DNA from: Candidatus Woesearchaeota archaeon | Lineage (GTDB): Archaea; Nanobdellota; Nanobdellia; Woesearchaeales; UBA10216 | Assembly (NCBI GenBank): GCA_016185705.1 | Contig: JACPMZ010000012.1 | Span: 1 to 46,397, forward strand | Direction of reading: 5' to 3' | DNA length: 46,397 bases | Shown: positions 2,965 through 29,080 of the stretch, one piece after another | How positions within the stretch are numbered: the first letter of the stretch is position 1 | Layout: the number at the start of each line of letters is the position of its first letter | The notes under the pieces: generated by a model | The model's database searches: none | What the model was told of the DNA's origin: nothing | What the model saw: only the letters and a program-made list of their open reading frames with translations | Translations under genes and position numbers: made by a program

Positions 2965-5580
2965 TTATCCTACTGCGCCTACCATTTCAAGCTGTATGAG
3001 CTTGTTAAGCTCAACCGCATACTCTAATGGCAATTCCTTTATTACTGGTTCAATAAATCCGGATACTATCATCTGCATTGCTTCCTCTTCCTTGAGGCCG
3101 CGGCTCATCAGGTAGAATATTTTTTCTGCGCTTAGCTTGCCTACTTTTGCTTCGTGCGCTATCTGCACGCTTTCCTCTCCGATGTCCATGTTCGGGATGG
3201 TGTTTGATACAGATTCCCTGTCCAGTATTAGTGCGTCGCATACTGCAGCAACCTTGGAATTTTTGGCGCCTTTGGCAACTTTAACTAATCCACGGTAAGT
3301 GCATATGCCTCCGTCCTTGCTGATGCTTTTCATCTTTATTGTGGAGGATGTGTTTGGCGCTAAGTGATACACCTTGCTTCCTGTGTCCTGGTTCTGCCCT
3401 CGGCCGGCATACGCTATGCCTAAGCTGTCTGACCTTGCGCCTGCGCCTTTCAGGATGCTGCAGGGGTAAAGCATGGTAGTGCAGCTGTTATGGACAAGTA
3501 CTCCATTAGCTATGAAATTGTGCGCATCTTCCACCTCTATGTCGTAAACAGGCTCTTTTCCCGCAGGCTTTATTGAACGAACCTTGGCAAAGCCAAACTC
3601 ATCATTTGTTTTTGAGGAAAAGTTAAGCCCATCGCTGCTTGAATAGCTTACGTAAGATTTGACTTTTGCCAGTTTTTCCTTTTTCAATGTGTCTTTTAGA
3701 TTTAGATTTTTTATGTTTTTTCCATTCATAAGTATTCTGTAGGAATTCGAAGCATGCGATTCGTATCCTAGGATGGTCACGTCCCTCTCTTTTCCATGAT
3801 CGAAGATTGTGGAAGTTCCTATCCCGCAGGATATTGCCAGCAGCTGGAGGTCTTCCAAAAGGTTCTTGTTGCAGCTAGTTACATAAGCCCCGTTACCAAT
3901 ATGTCCGTCAGAATCAACTAAACCGGCTATCAGAGAAAGTCGTTGGCTTAAAGGCAATCCAAATACCCAGGCAGGGATTCTTTTTTCTTTGGCAGTCCCG
4001 CCAAAACCTGCTCTTTTTATCAACTCTCCAATAACATAGGAATTTATTGATATGGCGTAATCTCTCTCATAGTTTATGTCGCATCCAAAGACGGTTTTGG
4101 CGGTTTCTTTGACAACTCCTCTCATTTCGCTCCATTTTGGTATTGCAAATGTTATTTTCGCGCTGTTATTGTGCGTCCAAAGGTTTCCGTCGCCAAGATA
4201 GAAACCCATCAACCACATAAAATCTTCATTAGGCTGTTCAGGAATCGTTACCTGCTTGTACTTATAAGAACTGCTCATAAGGTAAGTAGCTCCGTACTGG
4301 TTGCTGTTTTGTATTGTTCTTGTGCTGACGTCTATTGTTGGCAGTTTGTAATCAGCTCCTTCAATTGGTATGCTTTTTGGAATAGCTATTAAGTCACCTT
4401 TTTTAAGGATTTTAAGAGGTTTCCAATTGTAAACAAATGCGCCTTTTCGCCTGTTCTCCGCAACTTCTTTCCTGTTTATTACAAGGAAGGGGTGTTCTGC
4501 TGTTGCTTTGACAGTTCTCCCAGCCACACTAAGCGCGTACAACTCTTTAATGCCAGTGCAAACCTTTGCTAATACTTTCCTCTTTACAAGCTTTCTCGTT
4601 TTTGTATCTAGAGAATATGCAAACTCGCTTCCATTTATATCTCCCATTTTCTTGATGCCTTTATCCGTATAAATTGTAGCATCTTCTGGAAGGCAGCCCA
4701 TGTTTCCGTTTATCCATTCCATCACGCCGTTCTTTTCAACTATGGCACGTTTTGTGTTGAGGTTGAACGTTGAGGTGCTCCAGTTTTCAACGCTTGAGTA
4801 TCTTGCCCTCGCGCCTTCCCCGACGTAAATCTCAACGCCGCCTGCGTGCAGCGCCTTTTCCTCCCCGAACTGGGGTGCTGAGCAACCTTCAATGTAGTTT
4901 ACTTCACTTCCCGGCTCTGCGATTATGAGCGTATGCTCAAACTGGCCGCCTAATTTTGCATTCATTCTGAAGTATGCTTGCAGTGGCATGCTTACCTTTA
5001 CGCCTTTTGGAATGTAGATGAACGTTCCTCCGCTCCATACTGCTGCATGCAGCATGATGAATTTGTGGTCGCTTATCGGTATGCATTTTGTCATGAAATA
5101 CTTCTTAACAAGTTCAGGATATTTTTGCACTGCAACGTCCATGTCCTCAAAGATTACTCCTTTTGATTCAAATTCTTCCTTCAATTTATGATAAACAACA
5201 TTGGAGTCCCACTGCGCTCCTGCTCCGCCCAGCGCTTTCTGCTCTGCTTCAGGTATTCCGAGCGCGTCAAAGGTTTTTTTCATTTCCGGAGGGACTTCTT
5301 CCCAGCTTTTTGTTTGCTTTGCGTTTGGCTTTCTGTAGAAGTATATCCTGCTCATGTCCAGCTTGCTCAAGTCAGGTCCCCAGCTTGGCATCGGAGTTTT
5401 GTTGAACAGCTCCAATGCTTTCAGCCGTTTCTGCAGCATCCATTCCGGCTCGTTTTTGTCTTTTGAAATAAATCTGACTAGTTCTTCGTCCAGCTTTCCT
5501 GCTTCTGCTACGAAAGCGTCCTTGCTTTCAACAGCAGAGTCCATTGCCTGCCTGATTCTCTGTATTTGTATTTGTCTCAT
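2965..5580 (-). CDS. sufB: SufB, Fe-S scaffold subunit, interrupted by an intein
   Basis: Extein parts are clear SufB: WGPDLSKLDMSRIYFYRKP, GVIFEDMDVAVQKYPELVKK, GCSAPQFGEEKALHAGGVEI, then after the intein YPCSILKGAGARSDSLGIAY and KVGKLSAEKIFYLMSRGL. The 871-residue product is roughly twice the family length because a 403-residue intein sits after INGNMG; removing it leaves 468 residues, a normal SufB. I choose the ATG at 5580, which overlaps the upstream regulator stop as ATGA. A GTG at 5592 is the alternative. Splicing should be essential, since the insertion lies in the conserved core of a subunit needed for cluster assembly. Confidence 0.95.
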   Translation of the reverse strand: MRQIQIQRIRQAMDSAVESKDAFVAEAGKLDEELVRFISKDKNEPEWMLQKRLKALELFNKTPMPSWGPDLSKLDMSRIYFYRKPNAKQTKSWEEVPPEMKKTFDALGIPEAEQKALGGAGAQWDSNVVYHKLKEEFESKGVIFEDMDVAVQKYPELVKKYFMTKCIPISDHKFIMLHAAVWSGGTFIYIPKGVKVSMPLQAYFRMNAKLGGQFEHTLIIAEPGSEVNYIEGCSAPQFGEEKALHAGGVEIYVGEGARARYSSVENWSTSTFNLNTKRAIVEKNGVMEWINGNMGCLPEDATIYTDKGIKKMGDINGSEFAYSLDTKTRKLVKRKVLAKVCTGIKELYALSVAGRTVKATAEHPFLVINRKEVAENRRKGAFVYNWKPLKILKKGDLIAIPKSIPIEGADYKLPTIDVSTRTIQNSNQYGATYLMSSSYKYKQVTIPEQPNEDFMWLMGFYLGDGNLWTHNNSAKITFAIPKWSEMRGVVKETAKTVFGCDINYERDYAISINSYVIGELIKRAGFGGTAKEKRIPAWVFGLPLSQRLSLIAGLVDSDGHIGNGAYVTSCNKNLLEDLQLLAISCGIGTSTIFDHGKERDVTILGYESHASNSYRILMNGKNIKNLNLKDTLKKEKLAKVKSYVSYSSSDGLNFSSKTNDEFGFAKVRSIKPAGKEPVYDIEVEDAHNFIANGVLVHNSCTTMLYPCSILKGAGARSDSLGIAYAGRGQNQDTGSKVYHLAPNTSSTIKMKSISKDGGICTYRGLVKVAKGAKNSKVAAVCDALILDRESVSNTIPNMDIGEESVQIAHEAKVGKLSAEKIFYLMSRGLKEEEAMQMIVSGFIEPVIKELPLEYAVELNKLIQLEMVGAVG
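3487..4695 (-). mobile_element. Intein in SufB with LAGLIDADG homing endonuclease domain
   Basis: Coding region for 403 residues from Cys1 (CLPEDATIYTDKGIKKM, splicing block A) to the terminal His-Asn (ANGVLVHN, block G), followed by Ser as the +1 nucleophile. Block B is seen in TVKATAEHPFLV, with the TxxH pattern. Block F is VYDIEVEDAHNFIANG. Two dodecapeptide endonuclease motifs are visible, WLMGFYLGDGNLW and SLIAGLVDSDGHIG, both with the acidic catalytic position intact. The element therefore looks capable of both splicing and homing. The reading frame is uninterrupted from flank to flank. Whether the endonuclease is still active cannot be read from sequence. Confidence 0.96.
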
Positions 5581-5942
5581 TTTAGGAAGCACACATCACA
5601 GCTTTTTGGAATGTTTGCGATTGACCTGTGGATTTCGCACAAGGTTTTTCCTTCTTTTATCAGTCCGAGAAGTTTTTGCGTTTCTGCTATAAGCGTTACC
5701 TTGTCCTTTACTCTGGCGGCAGCAGCAGTTGCTGCGCTTTTCAGCTGTTCGTTCAGTTTTACCTCTGTTGCCCGTTTGTCATTGAGATACTGGCTGATTG
5801 TGCTTTCCTTGACGCACAGCAGTTCAGCTATTTCCTTTTGCTTTTTTCCGGCAGCTTTCATCGCAAAGGCAAGCTCCCTTCTTATGGTTGGTATGACGTA
5901 GAATACTTCAACTTCCTGCGGCATGATTAGCTGCGTTTTCAT
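5577..5942 (-). CDS. XRE-type HTH regulator with C-terminal Cys motif, likely suf operon regulator
   Basis: 121 residues. An N-terminal helix-turn-helix is seen at about residues 33-58 (KQKEIAELLCVKESTISQYL), like the archaeal XRE group COG2522. The C-terminus holds LCEIHR and SCDVCFLK, giving C102, H105, C115 and C118. Relatives as I recall them carry an additional CxxC before this, which is missing here (the region reads TLIAETQKLLGLI). The cysteines suggest an Fe-S or zinc ligand set. Being first gene of the suf operon and overlapping sufB by ATGA, it is a good candidate for an Fe-S-sensing autorepressor. That role is inference. The start lies about 28 bases after a TATA box. Confidence 0.82.
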   Translation of the reverse strand: MKTQLIMPQEVEVFYVIPTIRRELAFAMKAAGKKQKEIAELLCVKESTISQYLNDKRATEVKLNEQLKSAATAAAARVKDKVTLIAETQKLLGLIKEGKTLCEIHRSIANIPKSCDVCFLK

Positions 5943-26379: not shown

Positions 26380-26864
26380 CGCTTCTTGCTTATTCACTGG
26401 CAGCGCTGATAGCTTTTTCTGGAGTTATAGCAGGGATTGTTCTCGCTTTTCGCACTAAAGAGGAAATGAGTGCAGGCAGAAAGTATTTTCCCTGGCTGCA
26501 GAAAATTTTGTTCATGGCTGCTGTTGCTGTTCTTCTGAATCATTTTAATCTCGGGATGGCTGTCAGGGCAGTGGTTTACGGAGTCGTTATTGTTGCCGTT
26601 TTGAAAAAGCAGGTGCTGAACTTTTATCCGCTTCTTGCAGCCATGTTTTTCCTGCTTGGCCAGTCAGCTGAAAGCCTTTTCATGATTTCAGCTATTGTCT
26701 TTATTTACGGTTTCCCCACCGGCAGCTTGTTTGTAATCAGCTCCGGCAGGATTAAGCTGTTTGCGGCTGTTAAGGCAGCGGTTTTTAGGCATGGAAGCTT
26801 TCTGGCAATTGCCCTTGTTTTGCAGCTGCTGTACTCTGTGTTTGTGCTGAAAACTTTTATCTGA
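26376..26864 (+). CDS. Membrane protein, 162 aa
   Basis: The start ATG at 26376 overlaps the rpiB stop as ATGA; an upstream in-frame ATG at 26304 would lie inside rpiB and give a non-hydrophobic extension. Five hydrophobic segments (LAYSLAALIAFSGVIAGIVL, ILFMAAVAVLLN, AVVYGVVIVAVL, LLAAMFFLLGQSAESLFMI, FLAIALVLQLLYSVFVL). Resembles other small archaeal membrane proteins of unknown function. Third gene of a DMT-rpiB-membrane unit. Overlaps the convergent transglutaminase gene by eight bases. Confidence 0.75.
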   Translation: MTLLAYSLAALIAFSGVIAGIVLAFRTKEEMSAGRKYFPWLQKILFMAAVAVLLNHFNLGMAVRAVVYGVVIVAVLKKQVLNFYPLLAAMFFLLGQSAESLFMISAIVFIYGFPTGSLFVISSGRIKLFAAVKAAVFRHGSFLAIALVLQLLYSVFVLKTFI

Positions 26865-28824
26865 ACAGCTTCAGCAGGAATTTCCGGATTTTTTGGAGGA
26901 AATTAAGCTCTTCAACTGTTATCGCAAACTGCTCCTGTTCAGTGTACTTTCTTCCTTTCTCGTCGTAAAATGTGGCTGTAATCGTCATTGCGTTTTCCCC
27001 CTCTTTCAATTCCAGTGCGCTGAGCTCTGCTGTCAGTTTCCTGCCGTTGTCCAGCGCATCTATGTGAAACTTTGCTGCTGCCGGCCTGACAGACACTTCG
27101 GCGTTTATCGGCAGGGTTTCTGAGGTTTTTTTGACCAGGAATGATACCTCAAATGCCTCGTTGAATTTCACGCTTTCAGGATGCATTATGTCCTGAATGC
27201 TTAGCGATGGCTTGTCAAGCACGTATATTTCAACTGTTTCTGTTTTTGCCACTGTGTCGCTGTCCACGCTCACTTTTATCCTGTTTGTTCCCGGTGACGT
27301 GAAGTTTGCAGTAAAGTCAAACTGTTTGCTCCTCGTAAGCCCCAGCGTAAATCGTTCGCACTCCCCATTGTGGCAGAAGCGCAGGTTGTTCAGCGCAACG
27401 TTCCCTGTGTTTTTTGCTGTGCAGCTTACCTCTGCATTTTCGTATATGTATATTTTTTCCTGGGCAGTGCAGCTTATGCCCACGTTCCTGCTGTACGCTT
27501 TTTCCTCTTCCTGCTCTATTCGCAGCGCGTTTACCTCATCCAGGCTGAATGCAGGCGCTGCAGAGTTGGATTTGAATTCTGTACTGGTTTCTGCAAGGTG
27601 CGCAATCACTGTCAGTGGAAATGTGTAAACATAGTCTTCGTTCAGCTCTCCACTTACCCTGAACACAAAGTATTCCAGCTTTGTTTCTCCGGGTTTCAGA
27701 AGTATGTCGCGTTTGTTTGGCCCGATTAATTCCAGTTCCTGGGTGTTTGCATGCACCAATTCCGCAACAGTGTAGTAATTTCTGAAGTTGGTTACTTCAA
27801 CTTCCTCAATGTTGTATGAGCCGAATCCTACGCTGTCTTTCAGTATTTTGCTTCTAAGGGCAATTTCGCCCTGTATGCTTCCGGACGCGTCCTTCAGCGT
27901 GATTCTTGGCGTAAGCTGGCTCGTAACTACGTCAATGTTGCGGCCTTTCCACTGGTAGCCTGTTGTGGTTTCAGCCACATCCGCTGTTGAAATCATCTGT
28001 ATGTGCCCCGGGTCTACAAATCCGAACTCTCCGTAGGTTACGTCAAACGGCACCCATCCATAGCCCGGAAAGTAAACCTCTGCCCATCCGTGGAACCCCC
28101 ATCTCTGCTGGAACAGCTCAGAGTCTGTGTACGATATTCCTGATACAAATCTTGCCGGTATGCCCAGTGCCCTGTTAAGGGCAATGAACAGGTTGGTGAA
28201 TTCGTCGCATACGCCCTGCCTCGTCTGCAGCACCCAGCTTGCATTTTTTGTTACGTCTGCCGTCAGGGTGCTGAGGTTGTAGTTGATGTTGGTGTTGCTC
28301 CACTCTGCCAGCTTGAAAACAACAACAAACAAATCATCCTCTCCTGCTGCCAGCGAAGATGCAAGCAGCTCAATGCCCTGGTTGTCTGAGTCTATGTTCT
28401 CGGTCGGCAGCGTGTATTGCGCTATGTCTGAAGGCAGCTCAGCGATTGGAAACGCAACTTTATGCGTTACCGGAACCAGCGACCTTGTGGTTACAACATC
28501 AGCCACTGCGCTGTAGCTCAGCTTTCCCGGCTTCGGCTTATCCCAGATGAACAGCAGGCTTTTGTCCGTAACAACTGCCGTGGGCTGCAGCTGGGTAAAC
28601 TGAACCTGCTGCAGCGCTGTTTCTTTTGGAAAAAGCGTGAGGTTTACGTGCACGTACTCTGCGCTGAAATCAGATGACTTGGCAACCAGGTCAAATCTGG
28701 AAGATAAGTCCACTTCTATCAGCAGTTCCTCGCTGCCAAAAATCGTCTGCCTGTTTTCTTCAAGCGCTGACGCTGAGAACTGAAAAAGGAGCAGGGCTGC
28801 TGTTAGTGCTATTAGCCGCTTCAT
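26857..28824 (-). CDS. Secreted transglutaminase-like protein with Ig-like domains
   Basis: 655 residues from ATG 28824, which opens a classical signal peptide (MKRLIALTAALLLFQFSASA). TRQGVCDEFTNLFIALNRAL then GFHGWAEVYFPGYGWVPFDV carry the Cys-His-Asp triad of the transglutaminase/protease-like fold at about residues 205-275. The rest is beta-sandwich repeats with a conserved SCTAQEKIYIYENAEVSCTA disulfide. The last 16 residues (LQKIRKFLLKLFR) are amphipathic and cationic, not a standard membrane anchor. It may crosslink or cleave surface proteins; no substrate is evident. A TATA box (about 28845-28856) fits a leaderless start. Confidence 0.85.
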   Translation of the reverse strand: MKRLIALTAALLLFQFSASALEENRQTIFGSEELLIEVDLSSRFDLVAKSSDFSAEYVHVNLTLFPKETALQQVQFTQLQPTAVVTDKSLLFIWDKPKPGKLSYSAVADVVTTRSLVPVTHKVAFPIAELPSDIAQYTLPTENIDSDNQGIELLASSLAAGEDDLFVVVFKLAEWSNTNINYNLSTLTADVTKNASWVLQTRQGVCDEFTNLFIALNRALGIPARFVSGISYTDSELFQQRWGFHGWAEVYFPGYGWVPFDVTYGEFGFVDPGHIQMISTADVAETTTGYQWKGRNIDVVTSQLTPRITLKDASGSIQGEIALRSKILKDSVGFGSYNIEEVEVTNFRNYYTVAELVHANTQELELIGPNKRDILLKPGETKLEYFVFRVSGELNEDYVYTFPLTVIAHLAETSTEFKSNSAAPAFSLDEVNALRIEQEEEKAYSRNVGISCTAQEKIYIYENAEVSCTAKNTGNVALNNLRFCHNGECERFTLGLTRSKQFDFTANFTSPGTNRIKVSVDSDTVAKTETVEIYVLDKPSLSIQDIMHPESVKFNEAFEVSFLVKKTSETLPINAEVSVRPAAAKFHIDALDNGRKLTAELSALELKEGENAMTITATFYDEKGRKYTEQEQFAITVEELNFLQKIRKFLLKLFR

Positions 28825-28890
28825 TGTGGCTGATAAATTATCTTCATATATAAATAATGCTTGAGTATTAAAATAATAGCGGAGACTGGA

Positions 28891-28921
28891 GAATCCCAGT
28901 AAATGCGAAAACATTTACTGT
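28891..28921 (-). other. tRNA intron 3, position 59/60 in the T loop
   Basis: 31 nt with a 9-bp hairpin CAGTAAATG/CATTTACTG. Between it and the T stem (ACTGG/CCAGT) each side has seven nucleotides, TTCAAAA and GGATTCT, i.e. the 4+3 geometry of a bulge-helix-bulge, but only two of the four central pairs form. A relaxed motif. Confidence 0.88.
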
Positions 28922-28943
28922 TTTGAACCAGTGACCTATGGGT

Positions 28944-28961
28944 CTCTCAACCAGAAGTGAT
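28944..28961 (-). other. tRNA intron 2, canonical position 37/38, perfect BHB motif
   Basis: 18 nt. Central helix CTCA/TGAG with 3-nt bulges TAA and AGA. The outer helix is the mature anticodon stem GGG/CCC, which exists only after intron 1 is removed. So the order of splicing probably matters. Confidence 0.92.
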
Positions 28962-28969
28962 TATGAGCC

Positions 28970-28992
28970 TTCCGAAACCAAGGTCTTGGTTG
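28970..28992 (-). other. tRNA intron 1, position 29/30, perfect BHB motif
   Basis: 23 nt. The precursor forms the central helix CCGA/TCGG flanked by 3-nt bulges TGC and AAG, with inner helix AACCAA/TTGGTT. Cutting after the second nucleotide of each bulge removes exactly the 23 nt that restore the ATGGG anticodon strand. Confidence 0.92.
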
Positions 28993-29049
28993 CATCGGGC
29001 ACTCCTAGCTGCCCTACTCCGCTATTACCAAGAAAGAACTTAGGAGTGC

Positions 29050-29080
29050 TTTATAAATCTTTATGCCAAAACTTTAAAAA
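29050..29080. promoter_or_regulatory. TATA boxes of the tRNA and of the nucleotidyltransferase gene
   Basis: TTTATAAAT (29050-29058) fits the minus-strand tRNA at 27-35 bases. ACTTTAAAAAC (about 29070-29080) lies 25-35 bases before the plus-strand ATG at 29105 and fits a leaderless mRNA. Confidence 0.6.

Follow-up and report, generated by a model that had tools for sequence, protein, structure and literature searches.

The window analysed here, a stretch of 46,397 nucleotides from a Candidatus Woesearchaeota archaeon, carries on its minus strand (29023-28877) an initiator tRNA-Met gene made of four exons and three introns of 23, 18 and 31 nt. It is probably a working gene, the only initiator found in its genome, which EndA and RtcB would splice in an obligate, cooperative order. 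The sequence itself shows four exons that join into a flawless initiator tRNA, BHB-type splice motifs at all three introns, and genes for EndA and RtcB in the genome; splicing and its order we infer.

The introns lie at 29/30, 37/38 and 59/60, so that the gene reads tRNA 1-29, a 23-nt intron, 30-37, an 18-nt intron, 38-59, a 31-nt intron and 60-73. All four exons are on the minus strand. Exon 1 (28993..29023) holds the acceptor 5' strand, the D-arm and the start of the anticodon stem, exon 2 (28962..28969) contains the anticodon CAU, exon 3 (28922..28943) covers tRNA 38-59, and exon 4 (28877..28890) supplies the rest of the T arm, the acceptor 3' strand and the discriminator A. Exons 1 and 2 are placed by the parse, and residues 1-31, 40-61 and 62-75 of the mature query match exons 1, 3 and 4 at 100%. 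Joined, the exons give the 75-nt tRNA AGCGGAGTAGGGCAGCTAGGAGTGCCCGATGGGCTCATAACCCATAGGTCACTGGTTCAAATCCAGTCTCCGCTA, with 21/21 stem pairs, A1:U72, a GGG:CCC anticodon stem and anticodon CAU. These are the features of an archaeal initiator tRNA-Met (CAU, A1:U72, three G:C pairs in the anticodon stem, an intact cloverleaf), and they bear out the identity proposed in an earlier sequence-only reading of this DNA.

In the strict BHB motif, a 4-bp helix lies between two 3-nt bulges that hold the splice sites. Introns 1 and 2 have this motif in full. Intron 1 (site 29/30; 28970..28992, minus strand) forms the central helix CCGA/UCGG (4/4) with bulges UG^C and AA^G and contains an inner 6-bp hairpin; intron 2 (28944..28961, minus strand), at the canonical site 37/38, forms CUCA/UGAG (4/4) with bulges UA^A and AG^A. 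Intron 3 (site 59/60 in the T loop; 28891..28921, minus strand) contains a 9-bp hairpin and has 2/4 central pairs in the canonical register, which would make it a relaxed motif. All three had been described as BHB-type introns of these lengths, two with complete central helices and the last with two central pairs, and each of these points holds. The cut at 59/60 leaves the T-loop UUCAAAU; a cut one base further on would leave UUCAAAA, but with 0/4 central pairs against 2/4, counted by hand, and 59/60 was kept. A group I or II self-splicing intron was also considered and set aside, as such introns have a catalytic core of at least 200 nt and those here are just 18-31 nt, without an Rfam match in the window.

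The host genome spans 1.23 Mb in 14 contigs at 95.6% completeness and falls in an order made up mostly of woesearchaeal genomes, and a contig of the same genus, JAGVYT010000030.1, comes from 'Candidatus Woesearchaeota archaeon RIFCSPHIGHO2_02_FULL_45_15', in agreement with the DPANN-type origin suggested from the sequence. A further initiator was looked for in this genome in three ways. The mature sequence used as a blastn query returned just the three exon pieces of the window gene, Rfam model RF00005 taken to E=10 gave none, and so did the exact initiator pattern with the intron-less form allowed; these searches cover the assembled 95.6%. The sequence-only reading had left room for a second initiator, and none was found. 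Upstream of the gene, a TATA-box-like element, TTTATAAA (29050..29057, minus strand), starts 34 nt from the tRNA. Among homologues with enough upstream DNA, 132/160 have TTTAWA at -45 to -25, with a peak at -32.

To place the gene among its relatives, we surveyed named genomes together with 353 genomes of the order by pattern scan followed by parsing, which yielded 163 distinct initiator genes. Introns are absent from 59 of these and number one in 44, two in 23, three in 21, four in 12, five in 3 and six in 1, so that at least three occur in 37/163 and at least four in 16. With introns at 29/30, 37/38 and 59/60, the window gene is a multi-intron tRNA gene of the Thermoproteales type (two or three introns, some at non-canonical sites). 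Its three introns had been called unusual; they are real, but they are not the extreme of the group, since the same gene has four, five or six in relatives. The six-intron gene (L176) is interrupted at 13/14, 29/30, 37/38, 43/44, 53/54 and 59/60, with 4, 4, 3, 3, 4 and 4 central pairs in that order, and retains all 21 stem pairs. The five-intron genes are L073 (JACPTF010000016.1), L097 (DUGG01000073.1) and L068 (JAFGRH010000043.1), and the 29/30 intron is found in 45/163 distinct genes.

Across 222 homologous introns, the central helix has a mean of 3.57 of 4 pairs compared to 1.45 with shuffled introns, a comparison that is somewhat favourable because central pairing was part of the score by which boundaries and registers were set. 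The value is 3.59 in register and falls to 1.1-1.7 when the register is slid. Comparison of the window's species with two congeners shows that turnover is fast. One congener (G001) has introns at 29/30, 37/38 and 59/60 plus 46/47; the other (G002) has them at 15/16, 53/54 and 59/60, and its 59/60 intron is identical to window intron 3 at 23/31 positions with a 4/4 central helix. The weak motif of intron 3 is, on this comparison of sequences, a variant of a canonical one. Such scattered occurrence inside a single genus suggests that introns were gained and lost recently, and it allows intron turnover to be followed directly.

We propose the following course for splicing. The window gene would be transcribed as a 147-nt core precursor, and cleavage by EndA and joining by RtcB would follow an obligate order. 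While the precursor is still complete, intron 2 would pair with the D-arm and hold it open, and the open D-arm would free C24-C25-G26-N27 to pair with intron 1 and form its motif, BHB1. The GACCU loop of intron 1 could also pair with the V-loop, which would keep the precursor from folding into the cloverleaf. Intron 1 would be cut first, allowing the D-arm and the anticodon stem to form; once the anticodon stem-loop is back in place, intron 2 would be excised from it. The 59/60 intron would sit in its own hairpin and could leave at any time.

The order comes from the bases that each motif uses. BHB1 is built with C24-C25-G26-N27, and C24 and C25 are also part of the mature D-stem, so intron 1 can be cut only while the D-arm is open. 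The motif of intron 2 (BHB2) is framed by the anticodon stem, which intron 1 itself splits. Given these two constraints, removal of intron 1 and then intron 2 is the simplest order. Among homologous 29/30 introns, N27 covaries with its intron partner in 34/43 cases (18.8 expected). In the window gene, the predicted probability of the D-stem rises from 0.15 to 0.99 when intron 2 is left out, and that of the BHB1 helix falls from 0.42 to 0.01. Over 43 genes, the effect of intron 2 on predicted BHB1 is modest (mean 0.25 vs 0.16, P=0.012), with P=9e-4 against swapped introns and P=0.06 against shuffled intron 2. BHB2 was not predicted more often in the 43 genes once intron 1 had been removed, a result that is uninformative about BHB2 because the folding model does not favour BHB bulges. 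As a thermodynamic proof of ordered splicing the calculations were therefore set aside: with a modest effect on BHB1 and uninformative BHB2 probabilities, they lend the order partial support. That one intron must leave before the motif of another can form has been noted for some tRNAs by the authors of tRNAscan-SE 2.0 (PMC8450103). We found no report of one intron aiding the splicing of another in the open-access text searched.

Two complementarities, one between intron 1 and the V-loop and one between intron 2 and the D-arm, emerged in this follow-up and were not part of the earlier reading. In the first, the hairpin stems of 29/30 introns diverge freely while the loop often stays GACCU. This motif is present in 19/43 distinct 29/30 introns, or 22 when GAUCU, GACUU and GGCCU are included, compared to 0.75 expected by shuffling. 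GACCU is perfectly complementary to the V-loop sequence AGGUC (44-48), and all three variants are wobble-compatible with it. In the window gene, the loop lies at 28981..28985 and its predicted partner at 28933..28937, both on the minus strand. The next loop base, X, covaries with base 43: A occurs with U43, G with C43 and C with G43. The X:N43 pair is Watson-Crick in 18/22 cases (permutation mean 6.5, P<1e-5) and in 12/16 with one row per family combination (P=4e-5), and X tracks N43 inside each of the families f1 and f10 as well as between other families. The base flanking GACCU on the other side has no such relation. X:N43 is an unpaired U:U in the window gene, which leaves five base pairs. 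Where a gene also has an intron at 43/44 or 45/46, the V-loop side is interrupted until that intron leaves.

The second complementarity joins the intron 2 segment CACUUCUGGUUG (28948..28959, minus strand) to the D-arm segment CAGCUAGGAGUG (tRNA 13-22; 29000..29011, minus strand) through 12 contiguous Watson-Crick or G:U pairs with 29011-29000 (shuffle z -3.49, p 0.003). A fold program predicts the same 12 pairs in the window precursor. Among relatives, antisense matching of the 37/38 intron to the D-arm has a mean z of -2.01 when a 29/30 intron is present (n=37) and -0.17 when it is absent (n=34; P=3e-8). The signal is specific to this region when other regions and reversed sequence serve as controls, and it persists with the splice motif removed. 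The pairs are concentrated around 17-21 and leave free 24-26, which the intron 1 motif needs. Collapsing similar 37/38 introns weakens the contrast (P=0.023), from which we conclude that shared ancestry explains part of it, and 37/38 introns without a 29/30 partner also have a smaller D-arm excess.

These observations could also come from a real three-intron tRNA whose introns are removed independently, with both complementarities reflecting shared ancestry and composition in place of a working fold. We find this account doubtful, though it has the most to recommend it among the alternatives we weighed. In its favour, the introns are short, with many related to one another, the D-arm test reaches just P=0.023 after clustering, and intron 2 has a modest folding effect over the 43 genes. 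Against it, X changes together with N43 within f1, within f10 and across other families, the GACCU loop stayed while the stems around it diverged, and the D-arm signal is specific to its region. Independent removal is also sterically hard to picture, because BHB1 and the D-stem share C24-C25.

It is far less probable that the gene is a dying copy, in which the first two introns still function but the 59/60 insertion no longer has a cleavable motif, so that the gene is becoming a pseudogene. The 2/4 central helix of intron 3 would fit such decay, the homologous intron of the congener having 4/4, but intron 3 has kept its flanking 5-bp and 9-bp helices, and the A.G and U.U mismatches at its centre might stack. 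The tRNA retains every one of its 21 stem pairs, the TATA box is intact, and the genome searches gave no other initiator. Finally, the parse might be a coincidence or an assembly error, as could be supposed from the fact that neither ARAGORN nor Rfam at gathering thresholds calls the window gene. This explanation is practically refuted. Homologous genes with the same introns are present in a dozen members of the family and in dozens of assemblies made independently, and the parser score of 141 is far above that of 25 Markov-resampled versions (mean 62, maximum 79); clearly bacterial chance matches of the pattern scan score 32-94.

Searches of the genome for the splicing enzymes found a single EndA gene, of alpha type, and a single RtcB gene. 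The EndA has 176 aa, its closest PDB entry is the N. equitans alpha subunit (3iey_A), and almost all of it aligns to M. jannaschii EndA (1a79), without an insertion of the size of a CSL or ASL. An EndA beta subunit was not detected in the genome, where PF01974 and PF02778 have one match each, both in the same ORF. On these grounds (alpha type, no loop insertion, no beta subunit detected), the woesearchaeal EndA is predicted to be a homotetramer. It lacks the hallmarks of the broad-specificity enzymes, which are (alpha-beta)2 or epsilon2 and usually have a CSL or ASL loop.

According to reviews, intron-rich archaea have an (alpha-beta)2 or epsilon2 EndA, and alpha4 and alpha2 enzymes cut canonical motifs only (PMC4033280; PMC6379350; PMC4090602). 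Given up to six introns per gene and a lone alpha-type EndA, the rule that relates intron load to enzyme type would therefore be broken. In one way the woesearchaeal introns fit the canonical-motif limit: they are many and at unusual sites, yet 93% have 3-4 central pairs. We give roughly even odds to the broader proposal that introns within a single tRNA gene evolve together as a folding machine, in which the 37/38 antisense would open the D-arm, the 29/30 loop would bind 43-48 and the order would be built in, with the lone alpha-type EndA breaking the enzyme rule.

Multi-intron tRNAs are already known from Thermoproteales, ARMAN and Asgard archaea, and 29/30, 45/46, 53/54 and 59/60 are known intron sites (PMC4090602). 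As relayed by later papers, Thermoproteales tRNAs (Sugahara 2008, via PMC4033280 and PMC8450103) likewise have several BHB introns, including some at non-canonical sites, but their enzyme is (alpha-beta)2 and their maximum three introns, whereas the woesearchaeal initiator has up to six and one alpha-type EndA was found. In Atabeyarchaeia and Freyarchaeia, 92-95% of tRNA genes have introns and over half have multiple introns, often at non-canonical sites; these are Asgard archaea and not DPANN, and the main text gives no per-gene maximum (PMC11291895). The sequence-only reading had assigned multi-intron tRNAs mainly to Thermoproteales and noncanonical introns to Micrarchaeota. Thermoproteales do have the former, but with the Asgard archaea they are no longer found mainly there (PMC11291895), and the lineage here is Woesearchaeota, not Micrarchaeota. 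ARMAN (Micrarchaeota; PMC4033280; PMC12397907) resemble the present case as DPANN-type archaea with introns at non-canonical positions, and differ in having an epsilon2 EndA with a specificity loop (ASL), in contrast to the alpha type without such an insertion. The permuted initiator tRNA of Thermofilum pendens (PMC4090602) is another disrupted archaeal initiator gene; woesearchaeal exons are instead in normal order on one strand.

In the open-access text searched, we found neither a study of tRNA introns in Woesearchaeota nor a tRNA described with more than three introns, although higher counts may exist among the Asgard archaea. Relative to this literature, both contacts and the presence of more than three introns in a tRNA gene look new. 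The four-, five- and six-intron relatives exceed the maximum of three stated in reviews and software papers (PMC4033280; PMC8450103). The covarying contacts, of introns with exons and with one another, bring the long-standing question of the role of tRNA introns and the order of their removal within reach of a small biochemical test. Such genes can escape automatic annotation, and an apparent lack of initiator tRNAs in DPANN genomes may therefore be an artefact. An initiator tRNA is required for essentially every protein, and here the only copy found would depend on three cuts and three ligations.

Several minor observations concern other genes. In L087 (JAHJQH010000071.1), parsed by hand, an initiator gene has an acceptor-stem intron at 4/5. 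The central helix of this intron (AUAG/CUAU) includes two bases of the 5' leader, and the intron would therefore need to be cut before 5' end processing. A genome of the same family (G003) has a degenerate initiator-like tRNA (L041) with CUCGUA where CUCAUA is expected, and the pattern scan gave no proper initiator there. In family f10, L080 and L178 have 38/39 introns of 14-15 nt ending in GUGAUA, one base off the canonical site, and relatives have versions of 11-12 nt. The window's own genome has just 16 tRNAs above the Rfam cut-off at its 95.6% completeness. By eye, four of its other tRNAs, L018 (contig C14), L048 (contig C5), L017 (contig C5) and L049 (contig C2), have apparent T-loop introns at 59/60, and one of the four has an apparent second intron after the anticodon. 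Directly downstream of the initiator tRNA in the window, 26857-28821 (minus strand) encodes a transglutaminase-like protein (PF01841) with a signal-like N-terminus. The window also encodes, at 2965-5592 (minus strand), a SufB with an intein that contains a LAGLIDADG-type domain and is inserted in the SufBD core (Pfam PF14890, PF14528).
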